DNA of 49,827 bases from an uncultured Bacteroidales bacterium (GTDB taxonomy: Bacteria; Bacteroidota; Bacteroidia; Bacteroidales; Paludibacteraceae): NCBI GenBank assembly GCA_900320865.1, contig ONTT01000013.1, positions 1 through 49,827 of the forward strand, written 5' to 3'. The position numbers were made by a program, and so were the translations under genes. How positions within the stretch are numbered: position 1 is the first letter of the stretch; each line of letters begins with the position of its first letter. The notes under the pieces are model-generated. The model saw only the letters and a list, made by a program, of their open reading frames with translations, was not told where the DNA came from and did not search any database. Below are positions 3,191 through 39,399 of the stretch, piece by piece.

Positions 3191-3222
3191 TTATAATGTT
3201 TTAATGTTTTAATGATTCAATG
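3191..3222 (-). repeat. Octamer tandem repeat in the ferredoxin leader
   Basis: Four 8-nt units lie between the ferredoxin promoter and its start codon. On the plus strand they read TTATAATG, TTTTAATG, TTTTAATG and ATTCAATG. The repeat makes up most of the 5' untranslated region. Confidence 0.7.
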
Positions 3223-3236
3223 ATGATTTTCCGCTG

Positions 3237-3268
3237 CAAAATTAATACTTTTTTTTGAGACTACCAAA
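3237..3268 (-). promoter_or_regulatory. Promoter for the ferredoxin gene
   Basis: Minus strand TAATTTTG (3237-3244) is preceded by TTTG (3265-3268) with a 20-nt spacer. This is a full match to the Bacteroidetes -33/-7 consensus, with a run of A residues in the spacer. Confidence 0.75.
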
Positions 3269-3293
3269 TTTTAGGGATAAAAAATTAAAAAAT

Positions 3294-3364
3294 TTAGTAG
3301 AAAGTAGAAAGAACGCTTCGCTCAAAGTAGAAAGAACGCTTCGCTCAAAGTAGAAAGAGAAAAG
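3294..3364. repeat. GTAGAAA-type repeat element, intergenic copy 1
   Basis: A 23-nt unit (GTAGAAA followed by GAACGCTTCGCTCAAA) occurs twice in tandem at 3304-3326 and 3327-3349. It is preceded by TTTAGTAGAAA and followed by a partial third unit. It fills the gap between ruvC and the ferredoxin promoter. Related copies lie in the infC leader (19551-19601) and inside engB (30532-30574). Confidence 0.85.
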
Positions 3365-3374
3365 ACAAAAGAGA

Positions 3375-4004
3375 TTATTTCTTTTTCTTGGCCGTAGCAA
3401 GGGCGGCAAGAAGTTGGGCGTTCGGACCCGTTAACTCTTTGTCCGTCAGTCCTTTACGCTTGGCGTAGGTGGTCCAATCTTTCGCTCCACCCGAAGAAAC
3501 CGGCATCCCTAATTGAAGGTAGTGACAATAGGCAATCGCGAGTGCATCAGTGGCATCCAATTTCTTGGGCATCTGCTCATCCGGGATGTGCAAGAATCGT
3601 TGGAGCATGCCGGCTACCTGTTGTTTGGTAGAGTGTCCGTTTCCCGTGATCGCCATTTTGATTTTCATCGGCGAGTATTCATAAATCGGCACGTCTTTGC
3701 TGAGCGCAGCGGCAATCGCCACTCCCTGCGCATGAACGATTTTAATCATCGTCTGCGGGTTCTTATCCACGAACTGCGTTTCGATAGCGAGACAAGAGGG
3801 CTTGTACTTATCAATCAGTTCCTGCAAAAAGAAAAATTCTTTTTGTAACCGCGGATATTGCCCTTCCAGTTTATGCACGTCGAAGGCACCAAAATCGAGA
3901 ATCTCGACCTGTTGACCGACGGTATGCAGGAGGGCGTAACCCATGAACAAGGTGCCCGGGTCGATACCTAAGATAATATGTTCGGATCGATTGCGATCGA
4001 TCAT
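3375..4004 (-). CDS. ruvC: Holliday junction resolvase RuvC
   Basis: RuvC cuts Holliday junctions made by RuvAB during recombinational repair. The 209-residue protein shows the RNase H-like fold signatures: ILGIDPGT with catalytic Asp15, LAIETQF with the acidic Glu, and KLDATDALAIAYCH with the C-terminal Asp pair. The C-terminus has a longer basic tail (ending ATAKKKK) than E. coli RuvC, which has 173 residues. The start ATG at 4004 is followed within a few codons by the catalytic motif. It is the last gene of a minus-strand cluster after the DivIC-like and small membrane protein genes, separated from the latter by an octamer repeat. Confidence 0.95.
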   Translation of the reverse strand: MIDRNRSEHIILGIDPGTLFMGYALLHTVGQQVEILDFGAFDVHKLEGQYPRLQKEFFFLQELIDKYKPSCLAIETQFVDKNPQTMIKIVHAQGVAIAAALSKDVPIYEYSPMKIKMAITGNGHSTKQQVAGMLQRFLHIPDEQMPKKLDATDALAIAYCHYLQLGMPVSSGGAKDWTTYAKRKGLTDKELTGPNAQLLAALATAKKKK

Positions 4005-4038
4005 TGGGTTAGTGGATTAGTGGGTTAGTGGATTAGTG
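4005..4038. repeat. Octamer tandem repeat upstream of ruvC
   Basis: Two alternating octamers, GGGTTAGT and GGATTAGT, occur twice each. The array starts directly upstream of the ruvC start codon and contains the stop codon (4033-4035) of the small membrane protein gene. Confidence 0.8.
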
Positions 4039-4200
4039 GTCATCTTTCTCGTGATTACGGATAAATCCGCGGATGATGACGACGACGGCTCCAGCGATGA
4101 GGACGTAGTCACCCCAGGGTTCAATATCCGCTACGCTAAGAGCAGCACCTACGGCCAAGATAACAAGGCCTATGATTAAAATTATTGAGGATAATTTCAT
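4033..4200 (-). CDS. Small membrane protein, unknown function
   Basis: A 55-residue ORF starts at ATG 4200 with MKLSSIILIIGLVILAVGAA and ends with a charged tail, FIRNHEKDDH. It has two hydrophobic stretches (about residues 4-24 and 34-46) joined by an acidic loop containing EPWGDY, so it should span the inner membrane twice. It sits between the DivIC-like gene and ruvC on the same strand, with repeat-filled gaps of about 30 nt on both sides, and its stop codon lies inside the octamer array. I do not recognise a named family with certainty. Conserved position in an apparent operon is the main reason to believe it. Confidence 0.6.
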   Translation of the reverse strand: MKLSSIILIIGLVILAVGAALSVADIEPWGDYVLIAGAVVVIIRGFIRNHEKDDH

Positions 4201-4227
4201 TGGTGATTGGTGATTGGTGATTGGTGA
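4200..4227. repeat. Heptamer tandem repeat TTGGTGA x4
   Basis: Four perfect TTGGTGA units fill the gap between the DivIC-like gene stop (4230) and the start codon of the small membrane protein gene (4200). Confidence 0.85.
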
Positions 4228-4229
4228 TT

Positions 4230-4532
4230 TTAGGGTTCTTCTACTAAATAGATGTCTTCACCTTTCTCATGCATGAAATATTGTTCGCGCGCATAGCGCT
4301 CCAAACTATCTTTGATCATGAGCGTTTTCAATTCGCTCTCGGCTTTCTCAGTCTGCTCGCGATAGATATCGCGCTGCTGTTCCAACGAACGAATCTCTCT
4401 ACCGCGTTTGACGAACTGCAGCATGCTCTGATCACTCACGAAAAGATAGATGATCAAAAAGACCACCAGTGTGATGACATATTTCGCCCATTTGCGAATT
4501 TTAATCTTATTCCAGAGTTCAGAAAAGTTCAT
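4230..4532 (-). CDS. Septum formation initiator, FtsB/DivIC family
   Basis: This 100-residue bitopic membrane protein has a short cytoplasmic N-terminus (MNFSELWNKIKIRKW), one membrane helix (about residues 17-33, YVITLVVFLIIYLFVSD), and a coiled coil from about residue 43 (RGREIRSLEQQRDIYREQT). It ends with the ERYAREQYFMHEKGEDIYLVEEP region typical of FtsB/DivIC proteins. These proteins join FtsL and FtsQ/DivIB in the divisome. Length and layout fit the family. It is the first gene of the cluster leading to ruvC, with a -7-like box at 4562-4569 upstream. Confidence 0.88.
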   Translation of the reverse strand: MNFSELWNKIKIRKWAKYVITLVVFLIIYLFVSDQSMLQFVKRGREIRSLEQQRDIYREQTEKAESELKTLMIKDSLERYAREQYFMHEKGEDIYLVEEP

Positions 4533-4561
4533 TAGCGACTAAATATGGATAAAATCGGGTG

Positions 4562-4569
4562 CAAAGATA
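4562..4569 (-). promoter_or_regulatory. Possible -7 box for the DivIC-ruvC cluster
   Basis: Minus strand TATCTTTG followed by C matches the -7 consensus 30 nt upstream of the DivIC start. No clear -33 TTG is found 19-21 nt further upstream, where a heptamer repeat lies. Confidence 0.4.
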
Positions 4570-4578
4570 CAAAAAATA

Positions 4579-4610
4579 ATTTAAAATTGAAAATTTAAAA
4601 TTGAAAATTT
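4579..4610. repeat. Heptamer tandem repeat ATTTAAA/ATTGAAA
   Basis: Alternating ATTTAAA and ATTGAAA occur twice, followed by ATTT, between the divergent DivIC-like and nuclease-like genes. The array ends in the -33 box of the plus-strand promoter. Confidence 0.75.
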
Positions 4611-4639
4611 GCATAATTCGTTAATTTTTTGTACTTTTG
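4608..4639 (+). promoter_or_regulatory. Promoter for the secreted nuclease-like gene and probably the ligA operon
   Basis: TTTG (4608-4611) and TACTTTTG (4632-4639) are separated by 20 nt, a full match to the Bacteroidetes consensus. The start would be near 4646, which excludes the upstream in-frame ATG at 4609 and supports the ATG at 4663. Confidence 0.75.
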
Positions 4640-4662
4640 TAGCCGATTTAATATTAATACAT

Positions 4663-8334
<3,672 letters not shown>

Positions 8335-8338
<4 letters not shown>

Positions 8339-8880
8339 AACTGAAACAACGTATATTTGAATATTTGCGGAGTAAGCAGGAAGCACGCGATCCACGTTTT
8401 CCGCATTTAGACCGACCGCTCAAGGTGATGATTATCTATGAGAGTGACCTGCTGGAACGAAATGATGCGATTAAGACCATTCGTCAGGATTTGTTACGCA
8501 GACAGATGGATGTGACCATGTGGGGGTATGTTGAGAAGAAAGAGATCCAAACGCTCATTCTTCCTCAAAGTCGTATTCTGGGTGTGAATGATTACAATTT
8601 TCTGGGCAAGCCACGCGATTACGTGTTGACGGATTTAAAGGCAGAGCACTATGATTTGATGATTGATCTCACGACACGTCCTTTACTGCCTTTGCGCTAT
8701 CTGGCGATGTACACGGATGCAGACTTCAAAGTGGGTATGAACCTCGGAGAAGGACTGCACGACATGTTGATTTCCCTACCCGATTTCACACCGGAACAAG
8801 GAGATGAGGCTGCTATTGAAACCTCGTGGTTATACCATCAAATAATGAGTTATTTAGTGACTATTAAGAGCAATGATTAA
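8335..8880 (+). CDS. DUF6913-like conserved Bacteroidetes protein
   Basis: This 181-residue cytoplasmic protein has no signal peptide or membrane helix. It opens with a basic helix (MKLKQRIFEYLRSKQEARDP), followed by alternating beta-alpha segments (LKVMIIYESDLLERNDAIK, HYDLMIDLTTRPLLPLRYLA, FKVGMNLGEGLHDMLISL). It matches my memory of a Bacteroidetes-only family of unknown function (DUF6913) found upstream of dapA. Position between ligA and dapA, with an 8-nt overlap with dapA, supports co-transcription. The biochemical function is unknown. Confidence 0.75.
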
Positions 8881-9799
8881 GGGATTAGGCACAGCGCTTA
8901 TAACGCCGTTTGATGCAAATGGTAAGGTAGATTACGAAGCACTTGCACGGTTGTTAGACACACAACTGACGGGTTTTGTGGATTACCTCGTAGTACTCGG
9001 AACAACCGGTGAGGCAGCCACGATGACGGAGAAAGAGCGTGCGGAAGTGCGGACGTTTATTCGCCAATATGTAAACGGTCGCATCCCCTTGGTGTTGGGT
9101 GTTGGCGGGAACTGTACTGCAGTCGTCTGCGAGAGTCTGAAGACGATAGACCTGAGGGGATATGAAGCGATCTTGAGTGTATGTCCGTATTATAACAAAC
9201 CGAATCAGGAAGGGTTATACCAGCATTTCTGCGCAGTAGCGGAAGCGAGTCCTATACCTGTACTACTATATAATGTACCCGGGCGCACAGGCGTGAACCT
9301 ACTACCGGAGACCGTCATGCGGATTTATGAAGCACAGCCCGACAAGATCCTCGGCATCAAAGAGGCGAGCGGCAATATCGAGCAGATTAAGAGGTTAATA
9401 AAAATGAGTACAGAATACAGAGTACAGAATACAGACCAAATCAGTCCGTACTCTGTCAGCGAAGCGGTCTGTACTCCGTCAGGCAAAGACGGTCTATTAG
9501 TCATCTCCGGCGATGACGGCATTGCGTGCGAAGTGATGGAAGCCGGAGGAGCGGGATTGATCAGTGTGGCAAGCAATGCTTTTCCTGAGGACTTCTGGCA
9601 TATTGTACATGACAAGGATGCTGCTTTACAGGCGAAGTTCGACGAGATGGTCAAACTGCTCTTTGCCGAAGGCAATCCTGTCGGCATCAAAGCCGTCCTC
9701 GCACAAAAAGGCATCATACAAAACATTCTCCGTCTGCCTTTGGTTCCTGCAAGCGAAGGGTTGCAACAAGCCATCCGCAAAGAGATACAGACACAATGA
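8873..9799 (+). CDS. dapA: 4-hydroxy-tetrahydrodipicolinate synthase DapA
   Basis: DapA condenses pyruvate with aspartate semialdehyde in the lysine and diaminopimelate pathway. The TIM-barrel signatures are present: LGTTGEAATM, YNVPGRTG with Tyr133, and GIKEASGN with the Schiff-base Lys163. The family is usually about 295 residues and this one has 308. The excess lies in a segment after IEQIKRLI (STEYRVQNTD through CTPSGKD) encoded by a 7-nt repeat and its inverted echo, placed before the conserved LLVISGDD. The ATG at 8873 overlaps the preceding gene, and the TGA overlaps the next ATG (ATGA). Confidence 0.96.
   Translation: MIKGLGTALITPFDANGKVDYEALARLLDTQLTGFVDYLVVLGTTGEAATMTEKERAEVRTFIRQYVNGRIPLVLGVGGNCTAVVCESLKTIDLRGYEAILSVCPYYNKPNQEGLYQHFCAVAEASPIPVLLYNVPGRTGVNLLPETVMRIYEAQPDKILGIKEASGNIEQIKRLIKMSTEYRVQNTDQISPYSVSEAVCTPSGKDGLLVISGDDGIACEVMEAGGAGLISVASNAFPEDFWHIVHDKDAALQAKFDEMVKLLFAEGNPVGIKAVLAQKGIIQNILRLPLVPASEGLQQAIRKEIQTQ
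9406..9485 (+). repeat. Heptamer repeat with inverted echo inside dapA
   Basis: GAGTACA and GAATACA alternate twice (9406-9433). They are followed by GACC and a region with complementary words (GTACTCTG, GTCTGTACTC) around AGCGAAGC. The RNA could form a hairpin. The stretch is translated in frame as an insert in DapA. Confidence 0.75.
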
Positions 9800-11274
9800 A
9801 ACGGATATTGTCCATATGGCTCGTTTTGATTCTCGCCGCTTTCGGGGAAACTATGCGGGCGGATAGTATATCTCCAACTGATTACAACAGATACGCGCTG
9901 GATAGCATAGGTCGTATGATAAAGCAATCGGAAAATGCTCCTGCAAGCAAAGAGAAAGCGCACAATTTCCGCAACTATGCCTATACCGCCGACAAACTCG
10001 GCATGACAAAAGAAGCGCAGGAATACGCGCAGCGGGCGTACGACATGTATATATCGCTGGGCGAACCTTCCTGGGCTTCGCTGTGCCTGTACGAGCGGTG
10101 CATTGCCTACCATTCGATCGGAGACACGCTGCACATGAAGGTGTTGCTTGACGAATTGCAATCATTGGCAAAGCAGGACACTTCGGCTCTGACGCAGTAC
10201 AATTATTATTCGATTTTGTTTGCATGGTACATGTCCCACGAGGCGCGTGAGCAGGCAGAGGAAGCCGGTCGCCGGAGTATTGCGTACATGGAGCAGATTG
10301 AGAACTTGAAAGCATACGACATCTTACCTGCATGGAATTATTACAATCAGGCTTTAGTGTATGACCTGTTGTATGATTCTCCTCAGACAGACAGCATCGC
10401 CCATTACCTTGACCTCGCTGAACAGAGCACACGTATTGAAAAAGAGGTGGATTATCAGGAAGTAATGATCAGCATAAACGACCTGCGCGCGTGGTTATAT
10501 TATTATAAAAAGGAATACGTGCGCGCGGAAAGACAGATGATGCAGGTGTTGGCACTCATTGACACAATAGCACAAGTATCTCCGGCAACCGTCATTACGG
10601 AACGCGGCGAGGCGTATGCTTTTTTGGTGATGCTATACCAAGAGCAAGGCAGATTCTCCGAGGCATTGCATTATCAACAGTTACTGACGGAGAACGACCA
10701 GGAACGCTATAGTATCGAGCGTCAGCGGGTGCTGGACGATGTGCAGACCAAATACGAGGTGGCGCAGAAAGAACTGGCTTTGGAGAAAGAGCGTTCGCGT
10801 AGCCATACATTGCGTTTGCTGCTGATTATCGGTGTGCTGGTGTTGGTGGCTGTTGTAGCGGCGATGACGGCTATATGGTATCGCAAGAAACGGACGGAAG
10901 AGGAGTTGTACGCAAAAGCGCTGGAGGCGGAGAACATACACAACGAACTCGTCAAACTGCGTGCAAACAATGCCGTAGAACCACTGGAAGTGCTGCGCGA
11001 GGGGCTGCTCCGGCAGATAGATGAACTGCCGGCACGGACACCGTTCAAGACGGAGGCACGCCGCCGGATGCAGGAACTCAACCTGTCTGTTTTTAAACAA
11101 ATGATTGTAGATGCAGCAGAATTATCTGTCATGGACAAACGCTATCTCATGTGCTTTGCAGCAGGTCTGACCGCCGAACAAACAGCCGACATTTTCTGCA
11201 TTTCCCCTGCCAGTGTCTATACTGTACGTTACCGAATTAAGAAAAAAAACGGCTCTATTAGGGGGCTTTTCTAA
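9796..11274 (+). CDS. TPR membrane protein with C-terminal helix-turn-helix
   Basis: This 492-residue protein has a signal peptide (MKRILSIWLVLILAAFGETM), TPR-like helical repeats (about residues 25-330) outside the membrane, a membrane helix (about 338-358, LLLIIGVLVLVAVVAAMTAI), and a cytoplasmic coiled coil. It ends in a LuxR-like HTH segment (AAGLTAEQTADIFCISPASV, then YTVRYRIKKK). Such proteins in Bacteroidetes may sense extracytoplasmic signals, but the ligand is unknown. The C-terminal end is related to the stand-alone HTH protein encoded next. The 3' end contains an A8 tract (at about 11244), and the C-terminus after it (NGSIRGLF) differs from the paralogue's LFPQQTVLPF. Confidence 0.75.
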   Translation: MKRILSIWLVLILAAFGETMRADSISPTDYNRYALDSIGRMIKQSENAPASKEKAHNFRNYAYTADKLGMTKEAQEYAQRAYDMYISLGEPSWASLCLYERCIAYHSIGDTLHMKVLLDELQSLAKQDTSALTQYNYYSILFAWYMSHEAREQAEEAGRRSIAYMEQIENLKAYDILPAWNYYNQALVYDLLYDSPQTDSIAHYLDLAEQSTRIEKEVDYQEVMISINDLRAWLYYYKKEYVRAERQMMQVLALIDTIAQVSPATVITERGEAYAFLVMLYQEQGRFSEALHYQQLLTENDQERYSIERQRVLDDVQTKYEVAQKELALEKERSRSHTLRLLLIIGVLVLVAVVAAMTAIWYRKKRTEEELYAKALEAENIHNELVKLRANNAVEPLEVLREGLLRQIDELPARTPFKTEARRRMQELNLSVFKQMIVDAAELSVMDKRYLMCFAAGLTAEQTADIFCISPASVYTVRYRIKKKNGSIRGLF

Positions 11275-11294
11275 AAAAAATCTATATTTGTCTA

Positions 11295-11325
11295 TATGTC
11301 ATGTGCGCAAAAAGCAGTACCTTTG
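11295..11325 (+). promoter_or_regulatory. Promoter for the small HTH gene
   Basis: TACCTTTG (11318-11325) is a good -7 box. The best -33 is TATG (11295-11298) with a 19-nt spacer, weaker than other promoters in the window. It may drive the HTH gene and the large surface protein gene. Confidence 0.5.
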
Positions 11326-11346
11326 CAGTCGATTTGAAAAAGGCAC

Positions 11347-11664: not shown

Positions 11665-11690
11665 TGCGCACGCGATTTCCGCGCGCGCTG
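11663..11690 (+). terminator. GC-rich hairpin after the HTH gene
   Basis: GCGCACGCG and CGCGCGCGC pair around a short ATTTC loop with one mismatch, followed by TGTTTATATAA. It could act as a weak or partial terminator before the surface protein gene, or as an RNA-stability structure. Confidence 0.4.
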
Positions 11691-11716
11691 TTTATATAAT
11701 GAGTAAATAAATTTCC

Positions 11717-14700: not shown

Positions 14701-17700
14701 GTATTGGGGACGCGGCGCGTTTGGTCTGCCTTGGAAATCCATCGGATCGAACTACGGTGTAGAAAACGAAAGCGAACACCGGTTCCAAGGTACCTTTGAC
14801 GGTCAAGGACATGTAATCTACGGTTTGTACCAAGAGAACACCGGTATGCCTATGCGTGACGGTTACGGAGGTTTCTTTGGATGGGTCGGTGACGGCGCGG
14901 TCATCAAGAATGTCGGTATTGCGGCTTCCTGTCTGGACTATCAGAATTACGATACGCGTGGTGTCTATGACGATGCTACCAAATACTGGTTGCAATGCGG
15001 TGTGGGAACACAAGGCAATCCGAGTCGCGTTGGTATGATGGCGGGCTTCGTAGTCGATTCTGTTACATTCGACCAGTGTTATACCGAGGGAAATATCTTC
15101 GTGCAATCGGATGGCTTTTACGGCTTAGGCGGATTTATCGGACAATTGGGTGATGAGTTCTATTATAATATCGCCAAAATCACCAACTGCTATTCGCGCG
15201 TCAATATTCATAACACCAGCCCTGTGGATACGATCGATTACAATCCTCAGGGATATGGTTTCGCGGTATTTGGCAAACAAATTCCTATTACGAAAAGCTA
15301 CAGTGCGGGACATACCCATCACTCGTTCGCCAATGCCAATAACTCGTACGGTGATGAAGTGGCGAATTGCTATTATGACAAGGAATTAGTCAACGTAATG
15401 GATTCCTATTCGTGGGGCGGAGTTCACTATATCGGTGGCCCGAAGACCACGAACGAGATGCACGCGAAAGCGACATTCGTTGATTGGGACTTTGAGAATA
15501 TATGGGGACGTAACGAAGCCATCAATGACGGCTACCCCTACTTGCGCGTCTTCTATGAAGGAGCACCCGCAGATAGCGAAGATCCGATTGTGGTAACAGG
15601 TATCACGCTCAACGTAACGGACACGACAGTCATAGGAGGAAGCAGTTTCCAACTCATTGCAACGATCTTGCCTGAGGATGCCCAAGATAAGCGTCTCTCA
15701 TGGTCAATAAGTGACAGTCCGTCATGGTACACGATAGACGAGAATGGCTTTGTTACTACGTATCTGGTTGAGAACCAATTAGGTTATGCAAATACATATA
15801 CCATTACGGTTACTTCCCATGAAGGAGACTACAAAGCAACCTGCAAACTGAAGATCGTGCAACCTCGCCCGTATATTGAACCGATGGCTTATCGCCGTAT
15901 AGGTGAGAGCGAATGGGTATATAAGAAACAAAGCGTATTCTTTGAGAACTTCGAATATATGATGATTGCTTATACGACGCCTGATGCCACCAATCATGGC
16001 TTCAACTGGTCGGTAAGCGACGAACAAATCCTTTCTGTTACCCCGATGGCAGACACAACGTGTTATCTGGCCAGTGTGTATGGCACCTACCATTGTGCGC
16101 GTGCCATTGTTCGGGCTAAACAACAAAGCGAAACGGCAGCACAGGTGTATGCCTCCCTTCCGAGTGGTTTGAGAGCCGACTATGGTATAAAACCGTATTT
16201 GGCAGAGTTGGCGTGGATCAGTATCTATCAGCCGCCCACATACGAAGCGTATTATGGAACCGTTTATCCGGAACCCGAAACGGAGATGGAAGGCGGAAGT
16301 ACGCGACAGTTGGGTGTTCAGGTGAAAGCATCTTATATGTATAACGGAGGACTCAACTACACCGACAATATCTCTTATCTGCCGACGATCCAATGGTCGT
16401 CATCCAATACCAACGTATTGACGGTGGATCAAGAAGGCTTGGTAACGGCAGTCGGTGCTGGTTCTGCCACCATCACAGCAACGGCTGTGGGAACGGAGAT
16501 TAGCAGCACTACGGCTCAGATTACTGTTCAGGCGGTGGAAGCACAGAGCATTACCATCAATGAGTACACCGGTTCCAATATCGAAATACGCGAAGGAGAG
16601 ACCTTCCAACTCACGGCAACCGTCCTGCCGGAGAACACCACCGACAAGACTGTCACATGGGAATCAAGCAACACCAATTATGCGACAGTGGATCAAAATG
16701 GTTTAGTGACCGCAGTGAAGGGTAGCAGTTATGGTAATAGCGTGACTGTTTATGCACGCTCAAGCAAACAATATGTTGAAGCATACGCGTACTTCAAAAT
16801 CAAAGATATCCCCGTCGAGGATGTGATACTCAATACCCATGAGTTGGTGGTGTATATTGGCGAGAGTCTCCAATTAGAAGCAACGGTACTGCCGGAGAAT
16901 GCATCGAGTAAATCCATATATTGGTCAACTACCAATTATTCGGCGGTAGAGGTGGTATCCGGTACGGGAGTCATTACTGCTAAAGCGGCAGGTACAGCAG
17001 ATATCGTCGCTCGTGCTGGCGACTCAAGCAATGGTTACCACTATGACACCTGTCACGTCACTGTCAAACCGCACGAGTTGATTTTGAGCGAACACGAACT
17101 GACCCTGTATGTAGGCGAAACTTATCAGTTGGAAGCAACGACTATTCCAGAGAGCAATCTGAATGTTACCTGGATTACCAAATCGTCCATTATCGCGAGT
17201 GTAAAAAATGGCTTGGTAACCGCCAAGAAGGCAGGCAACACGCAAATCATCGCCCGTATAAGCAGCCGCGGAACGTATGTGTATGACACCTGCGAGGTGA
17301 CCGTCAGACTACACGAACTTATTTTGAGCGACCATGAACTGAGCATGTATGTAAGTGACACCTATCAGCTGGATGCGATGATTATTCCGGAGAGCAATCT
17401 GAGCATTACCTGGAGTTCAAAATCTACCGCTATCGCGAGTGTAAGCAATGGCTTGGTAACCGCCAAGAAGGCAGGCAACACGCAAATCATCGCCCGTATA
17501 AGCAGCGGCGAAACGTATGTGTATGACACCTGCGAGGTGAGTGTGCTCAACAATGAGCCGCAGCCGACAAGTTACACCATCCGCTTCCTGAACTACGACG
17601 GCACGGAGTTACAGAATACGCAAGTGCTGGAAGGAAATGTACCAACCTATAACGGAACTACTCCTACCAAACCGCAAGATGAGCAATATATCTACACGTT

Positions 17701-18819: not shown

Positions 18820-18978
18820 TTTGTTTTGAATTTAAAATATTAATACTAAAGTCTCGGGCAGCCACGCGTACTCAGACGCGGTAAAAAGGTAGGCCCTACG
18901 ACTTGTTTTTGGGCTTTACAGGAGTCTAACATCAGCCTTGACCGTCGCTTGACCGTCGTTCGACTGTCGTTCCAATCC
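18820..18978 (-). promoter_or_regulatory. Structured spacer between infC and rpmI, possible ribosomal-protein leader
   Basis: After the infC stop the RNA has an 11-nt repeat, then segments able to pair: CGCGT with ACGCG around CTGAGT, inside GGGC...GCCC. In many bacteria L20 represses its own operon through a leader structure upstream of rpmI. The position fits, but I cannot show that L20 binds here. Confidence 0.35.
18937..18969. repeat. 11-nt tandem repeat after infC
   Basis: On the plus strand CTTGACCGTCG occurs twice, followed by the variant TTCGACTGTCG. The array lies 10 nt after the infC stop on the minus strand. Confidence 0.75.
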
Positions 18979-19527: not shown

Positions 19528-19550
19528 AGTTGCTATAGTTTTAGCCTTTA

Positions 19551-19601
19551 GTAGAAAGTAGAAAGTAGAAAGACCGCTTTGCTCAAAGTAGAAAGACCGC
19601 C
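19551..19601. repeat. GTAGAAA-type repeat element, infC leader copy
   Basis: Three GTAGAAA units (19551-19571), then GACCGCTTTGCTCAAA, another GTAGAAA and GACCGCC. It lies in the 5' leader of infC, between the promoter and the start. Confidence 0.85.
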
Positions 19602-28560: not shown

Positions 28561-28569
28561 CACAAAAAG

Positions 28570-28711: not shown

Positions 28712-28747
28712 AAACTGCAATGCTCGAATCCGATTTTTTTCTTTTTT

Positions 28748-28779: not shown

Positions 28780-28801
28780 CAGTCGCAAAATTGTTTTTGG
28801 C

Positions 28802-30975: not shown

Positions 30976-31004
30976 TAATCGTGTATATTTTGGCATAGGT
31001 ATTA

Positions 31005-31037
31005 ACCAGTACAAAACCAGTACCTAACCACGTAATA
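31005..31037 (+). repeat. Short 11-nt repeat upstream of the TonB receptor
   Basis: ACCAGTACAAA, ACCAGTACCTA and the diverged ACCACGTAATA follow in 11-nt register between engB and the receptor gene. Confidence 0.5.
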
Positions 31038-31055
31038 AGTACGTTCACTCTACAA

Positions 31056-33488
31056 GTGGGTAAAATCTTAAAAATAGTAAACTTTTTGTTGTTGTGCTCG
31101 TGTAGCATTTTTGCCTACGCGCGCAGCGCTCGTGTGTACGGTTACGTCGTGGACCAGGATAATATTGGTATCGAACTGGTGAACGTAGCGGTACTTAATA
31201 GCGATGTGCCGTTGGGTACAGCCACCAACAAAAACGGTTACTACGAGTTGATTTTGGACGAAGCGGACACGGTGGTTCTCTCCTACTCGATGATCGGTTA
31301 CACCTCGGTGCAGCAACGGATTATCGACTTACACGACGTCATCAACGTCAATGTTCAGTTGCTGACAGATGAGCAGTTGCTCACGGAGATCGAAGTGCGC
31401 GGAATCAAGCATACACAGGGTACAATGGATTATATCGATGCGGGTGCTACGCGCATCATGCCTGATGCTACAGGCGGTTCGATAGAAAGCCTGCTGATTA
31501 CTTTTGCGGGTGTGCATCAGAACAACGAACTGAGTTCGCAATATAACGTTCGCGGAGGTGCATTCGACGAGAACTCGGTTTATGTCAACAGTATTGAGGT
31601 CCATCGTCCGTTGCTGATTCGCTCCGGCCAACAGGAGGGTTTGAGTTTCGTCAATCCGGAGATGGTAGAGAATGTGAAGTTCTCGGCCGGCGGTTATGAT
31701 GCGCAGTACGGCGATAAGATGTCGTCCGTTTTGGATATCACCTACAAGCGTCCGCAGGCTTTTGAAGCCAGCCTCAGCGCCAGTTTATTGGGTGCTCAAG
31801 TCTATGTGGGGCACGGCGACAGCACATATTCTCAAATGCATGGATTGCGATATAAGACCTCGAAATATATGTTGGGCGGCCTGGCCACCTCCGGCAATTA
31901 TCAGCCTACGTTTATCGACTACCAGACCTATATCACGTGGAAAGTAGGCGGCAAAACAAAAGCACAACGGGCCAAGAGTCCCTGGTCGATGGCGTTCCTG
32001 GCGAATGTGAGTCAGAACGATTACCGCTTTACCCCGGATTCGTTATCCGAGTCCTTCGGCGGACAGAATGCCAAGAACCTGACCATCTATTATGAAGGTC
32101 AAGAGAAAGATAAGTTCCTCACCGCTTTCGCAGCGCTCAGCACCAAGGGACAAGTGAGCAAAGAAGTGGAGATCGGTTTTGACCTATCAGGCTTCTACAC
32201 CAACGAGCGGGAGAACTTCGATATCACAGGCGAATACGTCCTGTCGAATGCGCCCAGCGGGGAAGTGACTGATGCTATAGGTACGGGTATTTTTCATCAG
32301 CATGCACGTAACAGCCTCGAAGCAGGTGTGATTACCTTGGCCCACAACGGCTCATGGAAACATAACGCTAATACACTCCGATGGGGCGTGAGCGGTCAGG
32401 CGGAACTCATCTCGGATCATATTTCCGAATGGGAATGGCGCGACTCTGCAGGTTATTCGTTGCCTAACGACGGCCAAACGATGGAACTTTATTATGCCAT
32501 GCGAGGCGACAGTTCGATGAAATCCGCGCGAGTGCAAGCGTACATCCAGAACGAACATAAATGGAACACCGCCTCGGGCCAATGGATCTTCACTATAGGT
32601 GGTCGTCTACAGTGGTGGAGTTGGAACAACGAAGTGCTTCCTTCTCCTCGTGCCTCGGTAGAATGGATGCCGGGATGGAAGCGGGATTTCTGTTTCCGTT
32701 TGGCGACAGGTCTGTATTACCAAGCGCCTTTCTACAAGGAACTGCGCGACACCGTGACCGATGCCTTGGGTATCACACGTATCGTATTGAATCGCGACCT
32801 GAAAGCGCAGCGTTCGGTGCATGTGGTGTTGGGCGGCGATTATTATTTCCGCGCATGGGGTCGGCCGTTCAAACTCACCGCCGAAGCGTATTATAAATAC
32901 ATCGATCGAATGGAGAGTTATACCGTGGATAATGTGCGTGTACGCTATTCGGGTAAGAATGACTCCCAGGGCTATGGCGCAGGTCTGGACCTGAATCTTT
33001 ACGGCGAACTTGTGCCGGGTGCAGACTCCTGGATCTCCTTCAGCACGATGGTAGCACGGCAACGACCGATTAATGGCGGAGCGTGGATACCCAGCCCGAC
33101 AGAATCGCGTTATAACTTCTCTATGCTATTTCAGGACTACCTGCCGCAACTGCCGCAGTTGAAGTTTCACCTGAAGATGCTGTTTGCGGAAGGTCAACCG
33201 TACTATGCGCCTCGTAACAGTCAGGCTTGGGGAAGAATGCCGATGTACAAACGTATTGACCTGGGTGCAACGTATATCTTCAACGCTCAAACGGCCAAGT
33301 TCATGCGCGCCGCTTCGGCCAAGCATGTCAAGCAATGGGCCATTCAATTTGAGGTGTTTAACCTCGTCGGATGGAAGAACGTGAACTCCTATTTCTGGGT
33401 GGCCGATGCGTATAATAACCAGTGGGCGAGTCCCAACTACCTGACAGGACGTCGATATAATTTAAAAGTAACAATTGATTTGCGATAA
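31056..33488 (+). CDS. TonB-dependent outer-membrane receptor
   Basis: The 810-residue protein starts at GTG 31056 with a signal peptide (about residues 1-22). A carboxypeptidase-regulatory-like domain follows ([20 protein letters not shown] ... NKNGYYEL), then the plug with [20 protein letters not shown] and a beta barrel. The C-terminus, [10 protein letters not shown], ends in alternating hydrophobics and an aromatic-poor strand. It imports an unknown ligand using TonB energy. No SusD-like partner is adjacent, so it is probably not a glycan SusCD pair. It lies between engB and mutS; the last bases nearly touch the mutS start. Confidence 0.88.
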
Positions 33489-33489
33489 T

Positions 33490-36126
33490 ATGGCAGAAAA
33501 AATCGTGCCGAACGGCAAAGAAGAGTTAACCCCGATGATGAAGCAGTTTCGCGACATCAAGACGCAGTATCCTGATGCGATGCTGTTGTTCCGTTGCGGC
33601 GATTTCTATGAGACCTACGCTGAAGATGCTGTCAAAGCAAGTAAAATACTGAACATCACCCTGACGCACCGTTCCAACGGAGGCAGTTCGGCTACTCAAG
33701 CGCTGGAGATGGCCGGTTTCCCTTTTCACGCTCTCGACACGTATCTTCCGAAGTTGGTGCGGGCCGGGTTGCGCGTAGCTATATGCGACCAGTTAGAGGA
33801 TCCCAAACTGACGAAAAAACTGGTAAAACGCGGTGTGACCGAACTGGTGACACCGGGCGTCAGTTACTCCGATACCACCTTAACGCAGAAAGAGAATAAC
33901 TGGGTTGCCTGTCTGCATTTTGATAAGCATCAGATAGGTGTCGCTTTTCTCGATATCTCCACAGGAGAGTTTGTGACCGGACAAGGCGACAGCGACTATA
34001 TCGACAAACTGCTGACGAACTTCGCACCCAAGGAAGTGCTGCACCTGCGTGGACGCAAAGCGGAACTCGAAAACCTCTTTGGCTCGAAATTCTTTACCTT
34101 TGAACTCGAGGACTGGATGCTCGTCGAGTCCACAGCTCGGGAGCGACTGCAGAAGTTATGGGGCGTCTCTTCGCTGAAGGGCTTTGGTTTGGAGAAGATG
34201 CCGGCCGGTGTAACCGCAGCAGGAGGTATATTGATGTACCTCGATATGACGCAGCACCTGCAAACAGGCCATATCCAGCACCTCAGTCGCATTGAAGAAG
34301 ATAAATACGTGTGGTTGGATCGATTTACGATTCGTAACCTCGAGTTGTTAGGCGGTCAGACGGAAGAGAGTCGTACGCTATATGATATCATCGATCGCAC
34401 AATCACGCCGATGGGCGGACGTCTGTTGCATCGTTGGATGGCCTTCCCGCTCAAGGAAGTGCGACCAATCCGCAATCGGCAAACTGTGGTGGAATACCTC
34501 TTCAAGCACCCTGAAGCGAGAGAGACGCTGCAAGAAGCGCTGAGCCAAGTAGGCGACCTCGAGCGCATCGTCAGCAAGGTCTCAACGGGTCGTATCGGCC
34601 CACGCGAGATGGTGCAACTCGGCAGGGCACTCCGAGCTATCAAACCCATTAAGACTATCTGCGACGAGGCGCGCGACAATACCTATCTCAGCATGTTGGG
34701 CGAAGAACTTGATCCCTGCGTAGAAATGCGCACCCGTATCGAACGGGAGATTGTTCCTGACCCGCCTTTGGCGCAAGGACGCCCGAACATCATCGCTCGC
34801 GGCGTGGACACCGAATTGGACGAACTGCGCGCTATCCAATCGGATGGCAAGGACTACCTTTTGCAGATTCAGCAACGCGAGATAGAAGCGACGGGCATCA
34901 CGAGCCTGAAGATCGGTTATAACAACGTCTTCGGCTATTACCTCGAGGTGCGCAACACCTACAAGGACCAAGTTCCCGCAGAATGGATTCGTAAACAGAC
35001 GCTCGTGGGCGCAGAGCGCTATATCACAGAGGAACTGAAGACCTATGAAGAGAAGATTCGTACGGCCGAGGAACGCATCCAGATCATTGAGAACCGCATT
35101 TATCAGGAACTGATGCTCGCCCTCAGCGAATGGATGCCGCAGTTGCAACTCGATGCTCGCGTACTGGCGCAACTCGATTGCCTGCTCTCCTTTGCCGTGG
35201 TCGCTGCTGAGAACCGCTATGTATGTCCTGATGTGAACGACAGCCTTATCATCGACATCCGTCAAGGTCGTCACCCGGTCATCGAACAACAACTGCCACC
35301 GGGGGAACAGTATATCGCCAACGACGTGCTACTGGATAACAACAGTCAACAGATTATCATCATTACCGGACCGAACATGGCCGGTAAATCCGCCCTGCTT
35401 CGCCAAACGGCACTGATCGTACTGCTCGCCCAGATGGGTTCGTTCGTACCCGCAGAGAGTGCGTCTATCGGTGTGGTGGATAAAATCTTCACCCGCGTCG
35501 GAGCAAGCGATAACATCTCGCTGGGCGAATCGACTTTTATGGTGGAGATGAATGAAGCCGCATCCATCCTGAATAACCTCTCCGAACGCAGTCTCGTCCT
35601 CTTCGACGAACTCGGACGAGGAACCAGCACCTACGACGGTATATCCATCGCTTGGGCAATCGTGGAATATATCCATGAGAACCGCGGACACGCCAAGACG
35701 CTGTTTGCTACCCACTATCATGAACTTAACGAGATGGAGAAGACCTTTGAGCGAATTCGCAATTACAATGTGTCCGTCAAAGAACTGAACGGCAAAGTAA
35801 TCTTCCTGCGCAAACTCGTTCGCGGCGGTTCGGAGCATAGTTTTGGTATTCACGTGGCCAAACTGGCTGGTATGCCGACTTCTATCATCGAGCGCGCCAA
35901 TCATATCCTGACCGACCTCGAACGCGCGGCAAAAGACGGGTCTATCTCCAAGCCTACTGCCCAAATCGGCGAGACAAGAGAAGGAATGCAATTATCGTTC
36001 TTCCAACTCGACGATCCGGTGCTGGAGCAGATACGAGACGAAGTCAAATCAATTGACATCAATAATTTAACGCCGCTTGAGGCGCTCAATAAACTATCCG
36101 AAATAAAGAAATTGGTAGGAGGCTAA
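33490..36126 (+). CDS. mutS: DNA mismatch repair protein MutS
   Basis: MutS recognises mismatches and recruits MutL. The 878-residue protein has the mismatch-binding loop in [18 protein letters not shown], and a C-terminal ATPase with Walker [15 protein letters not shown] (about residue 625), [15 protein letters not shown], Walker [17 protein letters not shown] and the ATHYHEL switch. I chose [20 protein letters not shown] at 33490, just after the receptor stop; an in-frame ATG at 33475 lies inside the receptor gene. Length and motifs are normal for the family. Confidence 0.98.
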
Positions 36127-36130
36127 AACG

Positions 36131-37180
36131 ATGCGATTCAAGAAACGATACATCTTCCGCGCAATTCTGTTCCTTATCTGCGGAATAACGGTAGCTATTT
36201 GTGGTATTTGTGCGAAGCATTATTACCACCTGACAGTTAGTAACTTCCGCTCCCATGACAATGCGGAGCATAGTTATAACATCTATCCGGGTACCACCAT
36301 CGATGACGTGTTGAACATGTTGGACGAAGACTACGATATTGGTAGCCATCAGGACTTCATGCTCCATGCGCGACTCATGCACTTTAACTATCCCGAACCG
36401 GGGCATTATACCTTCGATTCAAAAATTAGTAACCGCGAAATGATAGACCGCCTGCGATTAGGTAAACAGACGCCGGTGAACATCACTTGGAATAATGCCG
36501 TCTTCACACGCGAACAACTGGCGGGTAAAGTGACGAATAACATCATGATGGATAGCGTTACTCTGCTCCAATACCTGGAGAACGAAGACTTCCTGAAGCA
36601 GTACGGACTCAATAAAGAAACCAGCCGCTGCCTCTTCATTCCCAATACCTATCAGGTCTTCTGGACCATCACACCGGAACAACTCTTCGCCCGAATGAAG
36701 TATGAATACAATGCGTTCTGGAATGATGAACGACGCGCCAAAGCGGAAGAACTCGGACTCACACCCATCGAAGTAACTATCATCGCTTCGATTATCGAAG
36801 GTGAGAGCCGCAGCAAGACGGAACTACCAATCATCGCCAGCCTCTATCTCAACCGTGTCAAGAAAGGCATGCCGCTGCAGGCCTGCCCGACCATCAAATA
36901 TGCCGTGGGCGATTTCAAACTCAAGCGAATCCTCTATCGGCATTTGGCGGTCGATTCGCCGTATAACACGTACAAGAACCCCGGTTTGCCACCCGGACCG
37001 ATTCGATGTCCGAATCCCCAATCGATCGACTACGTGCTCAATGCCCCGAAGACGAATTACCTCTATATGTGTGCGAATCCGGCGCTGGACGGAACCCATA
37101 TTTTTTCCTCCACCTATAGCAATCATGCCGCCGCTGCTGCCCAATATCGCCACACCATGGATACGATACAATGGAATTAA
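36131..37180 (+). CDS. mltG: Endolytic transglycosylase MltG
   Basis: MltG cleaves nascent glycan strands and ends their elongation at the inner membrane. The 349-residue protein has an N-terminal membrane helix (about residues 10-30), a LysM-like region (YNIYPGTTIDDVLNMLDE), and the YceG/MltG catalytic domain with IASIIEGESR (catalytic Glu), LYLNRVKKGMPLQACPTIKY and SPYNTYKNPGLPPGPI. It starts 4 nt after the mutS stop. Its stop is followed directly by a heptamer repeat. Confidence 0.94.
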   Translation: MRFKKRYIFRAILFLICGITVAICGICAKHYYHLTVSNFRSHDNAEHSYNIYPGTTIDDVLNMLDEDYDIGSHQDFMLHARLMHFNYPEPGHYTFDSKISNREMIDRLRLGKQTPVNITWNNAVFTREQLAGKVTNNIMMDSVTLLQYLENEDFLKQYGLNKETSRCLFIPNTYQVFWTITPEQLFARMKYEYNAFWNDERRAKAEELGLTPIEVTIIASIIEGESRSKTELPIIASLYLNRVKKGMPLQACPTIKYAVGDFKLKRILYRHLAVDSPYNTYKNPGLPPGPIRCPNPQSIDYVLNAPKTNYLYMCANPALDGTHIFSSTYSNHAAAAAQYRHTMDTIQWN

Positions 37181-37208
37181 TCTGAATACTGAATTCTGAA
37201 TACTGAAT
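37181..37208 (+). repeat. Heptamer repeat TCTGAAT/ACTGAAT
   Basis: TCTGAAT and ACTGAAT alternate twice from the base after the mltG stop. The last unit overlaps the ATG (37207) of the next gene, so the whole spacer is the repeat. Confidence 0.85.
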
Positions 37209-37791
37209 GATCTGGGAGAATAACGAAGATATCAAACTCATTGAATGCGCGAATGAAAAACGCACTATTCAGCGCAATCTCAACGAGAGTCGCGAAGAGA
37301 GACGGCCATATGTGTTTATCACCTCTACGATGACCGTTAAACCTCTGCGTCGACTCCTTGTACCCGTCTCTATGCTGGAAGAAGAGACCTACAAAGCGGA
37401 GATATGCACCTATATCGCTCGTAAAACCGGCGCCCATATCATCCTGCTGCAGGCTAATGACTACGGTTCGCACGCGCAGCAGAACGTCAATCGTATCATT
37501 ACGCATATCGAGGCGGTCAATAAACGAATTCAAAATTCAGAGTTCAGCGAACAGAATGCAGAGATCTCCTACGAAGTAGTTCTTGCCCGCAAAGATTCCT
37601 TCAAACTCATGCAAGAGGCCTCGGAGCGACAGCGAGATTTCCAACATGACCTGCTCATTCTTACCGCAAGTCGTGACTATGGCTTGGATGACATCCTGTT
37701 TGGTCCGCCCGAACGAAAAGCCATCCAACGAGCACTCGTACCCGTCATGCTCGTCAACCCAAGAGAAGATCTTTTCTCATTATGCGACTAA
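37207..37791 (+). CDS. Universal stress protein-like protein
   Basis: The 194-residue soluble protein contains RRLLVPVSMLEEETYKAEIC, ARKTGAHIILLQAND, a middle helix, then HDLLILTASRDYGLDDILFG and ALVPVMLVN. This resembles the alpha/beta UspA fold, but the usual G-x2-G-x9-G-S/T ATP loop is not clear, so it is a divergent member. About 35 N-terminal residues precede the fold; an internal ATG at 37330 is an alternative start. A degenerate heptamer array (37527-37561) encodes RIQNSEFSEQNAE in the middle. Confidence 0.6.
   Translation: MIWENNEDIKLIECANEKRTIQRNLNESREERRPYVFITSTMTVKPLRRLLVPVSMLEEETYKAEICTYIARKTGAHIILLQANDYGSHAQQNVNRIITHIEAVNKRIQNSEFSEQNAEISYEVVLARKDSFKLMQEASERQRDFQHDLLILTASRDYGLDDILFGPPERKAIQRALVPVMLVNPREDLFSLCD
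37527..37561 (+). repeat. Degenerate heptamer repeat inside the Usp-like gene
   Basis: AATTCAA, AATTCAG, AGTTCAG, CGAACAG and AATGCAG follow in 7-nt register and are translated in frame. Confidence 0.6.
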
Positions 37792-37865
37792 AACCGAAGG
37801 AAATATGCCATTTTGTCAACCGAACTTTACAAAAAATAGATTTTTAACACTTTTTTCGTAAAACA

Positions 37866-37897
37866 TTTGGCTATATGGTCAAAAAGCAGTACTTTTG
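37866..37897 (+). promoter_or_regulatory. Strong tRNA-type promoter for a putative small RNA
   Basis: TTTG (37866-37869), 20-nt spacer, TACTTTTG (37890-37897). The stretch around the -7 box (AAAAAGCAGTACTTTTGCACC) is nearly identical to the promoters of tRNA-Val and tRNA-Ser. Confidence 0.8.
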
Positions 37898-37903
37898 CAC
37901 CGT

Positions 37904-37970
37904 GTTTTTCATGGTATTAGATTTAAGGTTAAATGAAAAGGTTGGGTTGTCGTGAGACAACCTTCTTTTT
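37904..37970 (+). ncRNA. Putative small RNA, about 67 nt
   Basis: The transcript would start near 37904, after the tRNA-type promoter, and end at an intrinsic terminator (GGTTGTC, GTGA loop, GACAACC, then TTCTTTTTT at 37945-37970). No plus-strand gene follows; the next gene is convergent. A 14-codon ORF (ATG 37911 to TGA 37955, MVLDLRLNEKVGLS) runs into the terminator loop and could be chance. I do not recognise an Rfam family from sequence; the Bacteroidales-1 motif, also described as bounded by a promoter and a terminator, is worth comparing. Promoter and terminator are seen; function is unknown. Confidence 0.65.
37945..37970 (+). terminator. Intrinsic terminator of the small RNA
   Basis: A perfect 7-bp stem with a GTGA tetraloop followed by a U-rich run. 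Confidence 0.85.
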
Positions 37971-37978
37971 TGCCCAAA

Positions 37979-39349
37979 TTAGTGTACTCTTACTCCCGTA
38001 ATGCTATACATGGCGCCATTACGGAGAATGAGAATCTGTCCGTCTTTTAGAATCTTTTGACTCTTGATTGGCTGTTCTTCACCGGAAAGCAGTTCGATAT
38101 CCCACGTCGCCGGTTTCGTGCCTTCGCCCCATTTCGAGTAGAGCCACTGAATACGCCAATCATAGCGACGGAAAAAACGGTCGCGTACATCCGCGTAATT
38201 ACTGTTATCATTATAGTTTTGCGTTCCTCGCCATACCTCCGCATCTTTCTGTGCCGCAGTCTCAATACGGTCCGCAAACTCACGAATAGCATTGCGCACC
38301 ACATCCTTTTGTGTATGATAATAGATCCACCATTCCTCTTTCACTGCCGCTTGAAAAACCGGCCAAGAAGCCAACTGACCTATCCAATACTGCGCAAACG
38401 TCGGGTTGTCGTATATCCAGGTCTCCTGACGCCGATGATACGCATTGCCGAAATCCCATACGGGACCGAATTTCCAAGGGTCGGTCATACCCAGACTATC
38501 GCGATCCTTGTATAGCATACAACTGCCGTGATAACTCTCGCAATCCTCCATGATCTCTTGCACCAGATAGTACTTCGCCGCCTCACGGATATCCAGCGCC
38601 TGCATCAAGGCTGCGGCAGACGAGCCATACAGCACCTCGTTGAGGTGATTCATCTGACCTTCGATATACGCGCGTTGCTGCGATGAGAGTGAATCCGGTT
38701 CGCGGAAGGTAATTACCATATGTTGTCCGTTGCCTTCGTTAAACTCAATACAACCGGACTCCCAATAGTTATTGATTTCCACTAACCATCCGCCGTTAAT
38801 CGAATCATTATGCGTTTCGCCATTCTCCTGCTCGTGGATCTTCACGCGATGCGACGCGATACGCACGTGTTCCGTTAAGAAATACAAACCCTGATATTGC
38901 CCGTTCAACACCAGTTCCACCGGTACGACATGAGGCGTCCAACGTAAACCGACACCCTCACTCACCATAAATCCACCCGGATTGCGCAAGAAACCCAGGT
39001 TATCATCCGCGCCGGCCAATAGGCACCAGTGCCGATTCTTCGGCATTCCCAGCACTTTGTGCTTCGTGTCCAACTTAATCTTATAGGGTTTCTTCGCGAA
39101 GTCCTTCCATGTGTAGTTACCGCGCCCCTTGATGGTACATCGAAGCGGTGCATTCTTTGTGCCTAACGAGTGATATTCCGGTAAAATAGAATCGATATAA
39201 ACCGAAGCAGGCACCTGGGTCTCAGTGTCCGATATCGAACGGTTGTTATCTGTATTCACATAGACGATGGGTAAGGTCTTCGTCGGCATTGCCGCCCACA
39301 TCCCCCATCCTACAACCATCATCCATCCTATGAAAAAGAACCTCTTCAA
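37979..39349 (-). CDS. Secreted CotH-kinase family protein
   Basis: The 456-residue protein starts at TTG 39349, giving a signal peptide (MKRFFFIGWMMVVGWGMWAA); an ATG ten codons in is an alternative. The CotH fold is shown by IKGRGNYTWKDFAKKPYKIK, a conserved GLYFLTEHVRI strand, and the catalytic-type WKFGPVWDFGNAY motif. In other bacteria CotH proteins phosphorylate spore-coat or surface proteins, or bind cellulosomes. The C-terminus (SQKILKDGQILILRNGA then MYSITGVRVH) is the short tail shared with other secreted proteins. It follows the CYTH gene across a heptamer-filled gap. Confidence 0.85.
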   Translation of the reverse strand: MKRFFFIGWMMVVGWGMWAAMPTKTLPIVYVNTDNNRSISDTETQVPASVYIDSILPEYHSLGTKNAPLRCTIKGRGNYTWKDFAKKPYKIKLDTKHKVLGMPKNRHWCLLAGADDNLGFLRNPGGFMVSEGVGLRWTPHVVPVELVLNGQYQGLYFLTEHVRIASHRVKIHEQENGETHNDSINGGWLVEINNYWESGCIEFNEGNGQHMVITFREPDSLSSQQRAYIEGQMNHLNEVLYGSSAAALMQALDIREAAKYYLVQEIMEDCESYHGSCMLYKDRDSLGMTDPWKFGPVWDFGNAYHRRQETWIYDNPTFAQYWIGQLASWPVFQAAVKEEWWIYYHTQKDVVRNAIREFADRIETAAQKDAEVWRGTQNYNDNSNYADVRDRFFRRYDWRIQWLYSKWGEGTKPATWDIELLSGEEQPIKSQKILKDGQILILRNGAMYSITGVRVH

Positions 39350-39350
39350 C

Positions 39351-39399
39351 TCTAAACGTTAAACTCTAAACGTTAAACTCTAAACCTTAAACTTTAAAC
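39351..39399. repeat. Heptamer repeat TCTAAAC/GTTAAAC
   Basis: Seven heptamers: TCTAAAC and GTTAAAC alternate twice, then TCTAAAC, CTTAAAC and TTTAAAC. They fill almost the whole gap between the CYTH and CotH genes. Confidence 0.85.

Follow-up and report, generated by a model that had tools for sequence, protein, structure and literature searches.

The window analysed here, by which we mean the whole stretch of 49,827 nucleotides (nt) at positions 1–49,827 of contig ONTT01000013.1 (assembly GCA_900320865.1), comes from an uncultured Bacteroidales bacterium of the Paludibacteraceae, and it carries, between and within its genes, short tandem arrays, most often of heptanucleotides, which share a period from locus to locus while the repeated word changes. 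A preliminary description of this DNA had named a number of these arrays, and all of them were found in place by Tandem Repeats Finder together with a simple period scan (match +1, mismatch −3), which at a cut-off score of at least 9 gave 14 distinct sites of periods 7, 8, 11, 14 or 16. Eight of the arrays have period 7, where 20 dinucleotide shuffles gave a mean of 0.05; period 8 accounts for three (0.2 expected) and period 11 for two (0.1 expected), both 11-mer arrays being weak when taken individually.

Arrays Along the Window

An octamer array (TAATGTTT) at 3191–3224 lies between an AAA_14/DUF4143 gene and ruvC, and a short heptamer array of AGTAGAA (3296–3311) runs into a 23-nt direct repeat, AAAGTAGAAAGAACGCTTCGCTC, at 3301–3358, where a heptamer word is joined to a GC-rich module. 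The latter repeat has six matches in the source genome with up to two mismatches, and its core, ACCGCTTCGCT, occurs nine times in the 689-kb sample described below, once beside the dapA array. A second octamer array, TGGGTTAG/TGGATTAG, starts one base past ruvC (4005–4039), a perfect heptamer array of ATTGGTG with 31 nt and 4.5 units abuts a divIC-like gene (4199–4229), and a 33-nt array of AATTTAA/AATTGAA (4578–4610) separates the divIC-like gene from the next one. Two arrays lie inside genes: a short one of GGGTTAC (6492–6508) within ligA, a gene assigned by Pfam, and one of GAGTACA/GAATACA (9406–9435) in frame within dapA, where the DHDPS match of DapA splits into two stretches, the better of which stops at residue 178, that is, at the array start. 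Arrays inside genes, such as those of the coding windows described below, are candidate contingency loci for phase variation. Further along come an 11-mer array (18937–18972), a heptamer array of AGTAGAA at the end of orf200 (19550–19572), a second 11-mer array (31004–31023) in the spacer that separates a GTPase gene from a TonB-dependent receptor gene, and an array of TCTGAAT/ACTGAAT (37181–37208) that fills the yceG–usp gap, beginning one base past yceG and finishing within the usp start codon. Finally, a 14/7-mer array of TCTAAAC/GTTAAAC, scored at period 14, takes up the whole spacer from the CYTH gene to cotH (39348–39399, or up to 39403).

Abundance and Period Spectrum

The source genome (G000) is a Bacteroidales bin of 1.97 Mb in 65 contigs, 82.65% complete, whose closest named relatives by MutS (L007–L010 and L062, with 89–92% identity) are bins labelled Bacteroidales or Paludibacteraceae. 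Goat rumen is named in one record among these nearest MutS relatives, and by RUG we take rumen genomes to be meant. A first sample of this genome comprised 20 stretches, three of which were all N and were dropped, and the remaining 17 (271,948 bases, b) held 43 period-7 arrays at a cut-off score of at least 11, against 0.0 in three shuffles. Period-7 arrays thus stand far above shuffled sequence in both the window and the genome, contrary to the outcome by which the preliminary description would have been refuted. The larger sample, hereafter the own sample, consists of 38 sequences with 689,402 b, namely stretches of G000 (3 of 40 all N and dropped) plus the window, and it contained 125 arrays of period 7, 11 each of periods 8, 9 and 11, and 4 of period 6. 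Merging the calls of periods 7 and 14 gave 143 arrays, about one per 4.8 kb.

Among the relatives, a genus-level set of 33 genomes (1,109,806 b) was made up of 28 genus handles and five named bins picked by MutS identity, which may overlap with the 28 and may lie outside the genus. There, again at a cut-off of at least 11, period 7 came first with 136 arrays, followed by period 11 with 57, period 8 with 26, period 9 with 17, period 10 with 10, period 12 with 9, period 6 with 6 and period 5 with 1, and none of period 13. In this sample the leading period changes with the species: in 100 kb of G011, nine arrays had period 11, two period 10, one period 12 and none period 7, some period 7 being visible there as one array seen at period 14 and as two AAATGGT-type matches genome-wide, and 71 kb of G009 held 11 arrays of period 11 and six of period 7. 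Beyond the close relatives, the sample of 73 of 80 MutS neighbourhoods (1,015,652 b) yielded 29 period-7 arrays, spread over 17 loci, as well as 18 arrays of period 8, and no period-7 array was found in 11 loci with 174,271 b, ten of which carry the label Bacteroides, Phocaeicola or Mediterranea and the last that of Bacteroidales alone. Period-7 arrays were present in 2 of the 18 order-level stretches that were not all N, and period 7 led once more in stretches from bins picked for arrays.

The array densities in relatives should not be read as unbiased, since several choices of sample favour arrays: the 20 orthologous stretches surround a gene that lies beside arrays in G000, and so come from a locus picked for arrays; 10 of the 20 genus stretches sit on contigs listed with GATTGGT matches; one set of species was picked after their counts had been seen; and one further set of 20 stretches came from bins picked for arrays at their MutS loci. 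Rows that were all N were dropped here too (1 of 20 genus stretches and 2 of 20 order-level stretches).

The 11-mer arrays, in which one unit corresponds to about one helical turn, recur with differing words upstream of a TonB-dependent receptor gene. Besides the window site at 31004–31023, they are found in the same GTPase–TonB gap of L008 (5365–5405) and L062 (5394–5438), and just before the TonB gene of L011 (10686–10761).

Length, Layout and Placement of the Arrays

Array length has a clear mode at 31–33 nt, or about 4.5 units, with 40 of 142 arrays in the own sample (19 at 28–30 nt and 8 at 34–36 nt) and 35 of 156 in the relatives (21 and 12, respectively), and in more distant genomes the peak widens and the tail lengthens (20 of 122 at 31–33 nt, 15 at 28–30 nt and 7 at 34–36 nt). 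Of the arrays of 31–33 nt, 29 out of 40 are imperfect in the own sample and 26 out of 35 in relatives, and therefore the collapse of perfect repeats during assembly does not account for this mode. The alternation of two related words, which had been put forward as the general layout, turned out to be one layout among several: A-B-A-B describes 11 of the 98 arrays with four units in the own sample and 11 of 94 in relatives, and A-A-A-A describes 18 of the same 98.

With arrays masked from the open reading frame (ORF) caller, 376 co-directional gaps between genes were scored in the own sample, and 32 of the 64 gaps of 30–60 nt contained an array, which covered a median of 84% of the gap at 30–45 nt and of 61% at 45–60 nt. 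The filling of operon gaps noted in the preliminary description is thus borne out, arrays also being found within genes, as in ligA and dapA. No array was seen in the 136 gaps below 15 nt, a result partly forced by the overlap criterion and unused as evidence, and the mean fraction of an array inside an ORF was 0.56, a value obtained with a simple ORF caller that runs through arrays. The gaps without a called array showed no residual signal at lag 7 (0.292, against 0.285 at lag 6 and 0.301 at lag 8), and so in this sample the arrays are either present or absent, not fading.

Regarding strand, A-richness of the coding strand as a specific translation signal was rejected because it is equally present in gaps without arrays (57:19) and with them (40:15). 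The strand depends on the class of word, given that GATTKKT words favour the template strand (37:10), GAAAGKT words the coding strand (17:4) and the other words the coding strand as well (23:12, with five ties). Neighbouring arrays agree in the sign of their G/C bias in 84 of 121 cases, against 64.6 under permutation. A possible bias tied to the chromosome strand, that is, to replication, was also considered: overall, the sign of an array does not follow the nearest gene (56 of 137 cases), and contigs give no direction of replication.

Other repeats were observed as well. Gaps of the kind that arrays fill also hold an element of about 190–260 nt with similar ends, seen in L120 (between genes 13308 and 11997), in three gaps of L174 and in two of L175, and an exact-motif check recovered only some of its copies. 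In the window, a 32-nt unit is repeated 3.1 times at 39931–40028, near the tRNA-Ser(gct) at 40094–40181, with related letters in the corresponding gap of L062, and a 240-nt tandem repeat of 2.1 copies lies at 17042–17540 within an open frame of 2146 amino acids.

A Restricted Lexicon that Differs Between Species

When the rotations and both strands of a word are counted as one, the 143 arrays of the own sample reduce to 52 consensus words (one being a poly-A run), of which ATTGGTG is the commonest with 21 arrays. The words of different loci had been described as unrelated, and this does not hold: pairs of arrays have the identical word in 4.4% of cases, against 0.15% for random gap 7-mers of G000 and 0.46% when letters are shuffled within words (maximum of 15 trials, 0.61%), about a tenfold recurrence, and 124 of 142 array words are without G or without C, compared with 38% of gap 7-mers. 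The companion statement, that the arrays are not a mobile element, holds as far as one shared sequence is concerned, the 143 copies having 52 words and no sequence in common. An element with one conserved sequence, such as a miniature inverted-repeat transposable element or a repetitive extragenic palindrome, was accordingly rejected, the common feature being the period.

Species also differ in their preferred words. In whole-genome counts on forward and reverse patterns, with up to two mismatches and with long arrays counted several times, GATTGGT-type matches numbered 153 (98 + 55) in G000, 73 in G003, 19 in G035 and 0 in G009, GATTTTT-type matches 108, 87, 2 and 0 in the same genomes, AAATGGT-type matches 2, 1, 88 and 47, and AAAGGTG-type matches 53, 11, 93 and 7, with 195 in G015. 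Reversed-pattern controls in G000 gave 6, 1, 2 and 4 for the four types in this order. The AAAGGTG-type control is not negligible in some genomes (37 against 93 in G035 and 25 against 16 in G012), and those of AAATGGT and AGTTGAC are uninformative because, by inspection, these words reversed are their own rotations. The last word, mirror-symmetric in tandem, has 519 genome-wide matches with up to three mismatches in the Prevotella-labelled bin G067. Within the genomes of relatives, G000 excluded, 3.9% of array pairs have the same word against 1.8% under label permutation, a value reached by 0 of 300 permutations. Of 36 pairs of arrays at most 500 b apart, 16.7% have an identical word; for arrays on different contigs the figure is 4.3%.

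Orthologous Sites and Coding Windows

One locus was compared across 20 relatives, and a second orthologous region was matched in 24 of 41 genomes. At the orthologous gaps, to which the preliminary description had looked for changes of word and unit number, relatives often hold arrays with other words, and some are without the gap or without an array. Units of the AAATGGT type are present in the yceG–usp gap of L008 and L010, and no heptamer array was found in that gap of L007, L009 and L062. At the 7TM-HD–dus junction, G000 has a gap of 52 nt with ATCATCA-type units at its end, and AAATGACCAAATGGT-type units are present in L167 and L183, against just 5 nt in L169, L171 and L180; at one orthologous junction some species have 4–8 nt or an overlap and others array units. 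The divergent gap beside a gldD-like gene contains 15 arrays in 13 species, with words that include AATTGAA, AATTAAA, AATTCAA, CTTTCAA and AAAGGTG. Overall, words at orthologous sites of different species agree exactly (P0) in 7.1% of 211 pairs and to within one letter (P≤1) in 24.6%, compared with 1.6% and 10.3% between species in general, and thus local descent is visible.

The most telling sites lie within genes. In the coding window of an SBF-like gene, whose Pfam match is slightly under the cut-off, nine of the 13 cases had a best lag-7 match of 16/21 or more. Their words belong to the AATTTCA, CTTTCAC, AATTACA, TTCATTA and ATCTATC types, and all nine encode exactly 40 amino acids; of the four remaining cases, three encode 40 and one 47. 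The array sits 15 nt further along the window in L175 and L171 than in most. The window of a PcrB–deaminase gene reached at least 16/21 in 10 of 14 cases, eight of which encode exactly 23 amino acids and the others 27 and 28, so that the encoded length is unchanged in 17 of the 19 array-bearing cases of both windows. Among random coding segments of matching lengths, with 3000 drawn for each window, 1.5% and 0.6% attain 16/21. The cases counted exclude 2 of 15 orthologues of the SBF-like gene and 6 of 20 of the PcrB–deaminase gene in which a flanking motif was missing. The words in these windows thus differ in step across units, while the reading frame is kept and the length mostly unchanged.

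Origin of the Arrays

We consider these arrays to be heptanucleotide simple-sequence repeats made by 7-nt slippage or template switching, homogenised unit by unit and tolerated in gaps and permissive loops, a reading to which we give a probability of roughly 60%. Replication errors with a step of 7 nt, either slippage or short template switching at a microhomology of a few nt, would create and maintain the arrays, and the same process would copy one unit over its neighbours, in such a way that the period is kept and the word drifts by concerted evolution. Loops of about 7 nt should escape mismatch repair. PMC4060949 also argues that repeat loops are too large for efficient repair. This reading fits the words that lie one change apart and the size of the loops. 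The arrays would persist where harm is small, as in operon spacers, before start codons and in permissive protein loops, and words without G or without C would prevail perhaps because they are unable to fold. Bacteroidetes mRNAs are naturally without Shine–Dalgarno sequences, according to PMC6847099. Local copying with a 7-nt step, as proposed in the preliminary description, thus remains the best account, with the amendments that the words form a restricted shared lexicon and that a templated polymerase of the reverse-transcriptase type is not needed.

Several points weigh against slippage with homogenisation. By itself, slippage predicts neither the length mode of 31–33 nt, nor the scarcity of periods 5, 6, 10 and 13, nor a species such as G011 with nine period-11 arrays and none of period 7, and it leaves the choice of 7, or of 11 in some species, unaccounted for; any reason for 7, for 11 or for the length mode would be conjectural. 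The word preferences of species suggest an exchange between loci or a trans-acting factor. A single step of +7 or −7 in a coding window shifts the frame, and hence a net-zero change needs coupled events. Decaying arrays would be expected, yet the array-free gaps show no residual lag-7 signal. The whole-genome collections contain one genome per species.

The alternative that survives best, a possible one that we hold to be clearly less probable than slippage, is the exchange of words between loci, in which units would be copied from other arrays of the same genome, by gene conversion or short template switching, so that each species would gain its own word set. It would explain why GATTGGT-type matches outnumber the AAATGGT type by 153 to 2 in G000 and fall behind by 19 to 88 in G035, why words are shared within species above label permutation and why the closest arrays share them most often (16.7%, as against 4.3% across contigs), although orthologous sites across species share words more (P0 of 7.1%) than loci within a genome do (3.9–4.4%), and the lexicon is partly genus-wide, with a between-species P0 of 1.6% against 0.15% for random gap 7-mers of G000. 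Such exchange may add to slippage.

It is rather improbable that the arrays are functional cis elements, for translation initiation, coupling or protein binding, selected for their period and not for their word. The operon gaps filled by arrays, the arrays beside the gldD-like gene in 13 species and the 11-mers of differing words upstream of the TonB gene would be in keeping with such a function; against it, the A-richness of the coding strand is similar with and without arrays, unrelated genes also carry internal arrays, and the same junction is found in other species without the gap or without the array. Only slightly more doubtful, a speculative proposal at best, would be a lineage-specific copying activity with a built-in step, of 7 nt mostly and 11 nt in some species, that rewrites blocks of about 4.5 units (31–33 nt) at permissive sites and overwrites the old word at unchanged length, even inside genes. 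An artefact of metagenome-bin assembly is very improbable, for even though G000 is incomplete, most named relatives are bins and de Bruijn assembly could shorten perfect arrays, the arrays of 31–33 nt are mostly imperfect, arrays occur in many separate bins, short ones (19 nt, in two places) are present in a record titled Xylanibacter brevis ATCC 19188 (L040; no array in three further 20-kb stretches of that genome), and PMC4692102 reports heptamer arrays of Xanthomonas that prefer four units.

As to candidate enzymes, a reverse transcriptase as the source is unsupported, since RVT_1 was detected in 11 of the 41 genomes searched, and none was found in the array-rich G035, which is 97% complete, or in the array-rich G034 and G006, the bins being incomplete. 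The sole RVT_1 found in G000 lies in a 485-aa open frame (L108, 11166–12623, contig C18) that, among the PADLOC models, is best matched by the reverse transcriptase models XI and XII, which we take to be retron types. A Y-family polymerase (PF00817) is present in 32 of 41 genomes, and its absence from the matches in the array-bearing but incomplete bins G000 and G022 weakly opposes it as a requirement.

These observations matter in more than one respect. Here is a genus in which the period, and often the site, is conserved across many species whose words differ, some showing 11 instead of 7, and for this reason the source of the period becomes comparable between relatives; for the preference of bacterial tandem repeats for seven nt, no explanation was found in print among the matches listed. 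In addition, array spacers affect the annotation of start codons and reading frames.

Comparison with Known Systems

The preliminary description knew of no account of this pattern for Bacteroidales, yet the pattern is in part described, given that an excess of heptamers in bacteria is in print and that TAACTGA arrays are reported in five Bacteroidetes in PMC4679880. PMC12699852 reports a high repeat density in Bacteroidota and plots 7-nt units among others, the term "hepta" being absent from its main text. The array class is therefore a known one. Not found in print, among the matches listed of open-licence papers, were orthologous coding windows that keep their length while the word differs, lexicons that vary with the species, and the contrast of 7 with 11.

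The TAACTGA repeats, described for Beggiatoaceae, Thiocystis, cyanobacteria and the five Bacteroidetes in PMC4679880, resemble the present arrays in being heptamers often placed right before start codons, some with other heptamers beside them, and in two Cyanothece strains their indels are mostly 7-nt steps. They consist of one word, in contrast with the shifting lexicon found here, and TAACTGA, its rotations and complements are absent from the 52 consensus words of the own sample, no whole-genome search for the pattern having been made. The Xanthomonas GGGAATC and Nostoc GGGGA(T/C)T repeats, as presented in PMC4692102, are likewise dispersed, mostly intergenic heptamers with a four-unit preference, which in Xanthomonas is linked there to G-quadruplexes, and most of the Xanthomonas repeats lie between the same gene pairs in two species with varying length and sequence. 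In contrast, those are a single quadruplex-capable family of words, and the present arrays fall outside it, with GGG or CCC in only 12 of 143 arrays and in none of the commonest words. Since lengths peak at about 4.5 units with so few G-tracts, quadruplex formation need not explain the preference, and four to five units mostly without G-tracts argue against it as the general reason. Another relevant case is that of the Calothrix heptanucleotides, which are presumably the repeats called STRR. They are mentioned in PMC4692102 and, likened by description alone, also comprise several heptamers per genome.

The broadest comparison is with the heptanucleotide repeats of a 2007 study by Mrazek and co-workers, to which PMC4679880 credits the finding that heptanucleotides are the most abundant repeat class in most genomes, and to which both it and PMC4692102 credit the heptamer excess in bacteria and the polymerase proposal, slippage there being tied to the length of DNA contacted by the polymerase. 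As in that class, the units here are tandem, of 7 nt and beyond chance. Unlike it, the present arrays offer many words per genome, differing words at fixed length in orthologous coding windows, and species that differ in their word and, within our sample, in their leading period, be it 7 or 11.

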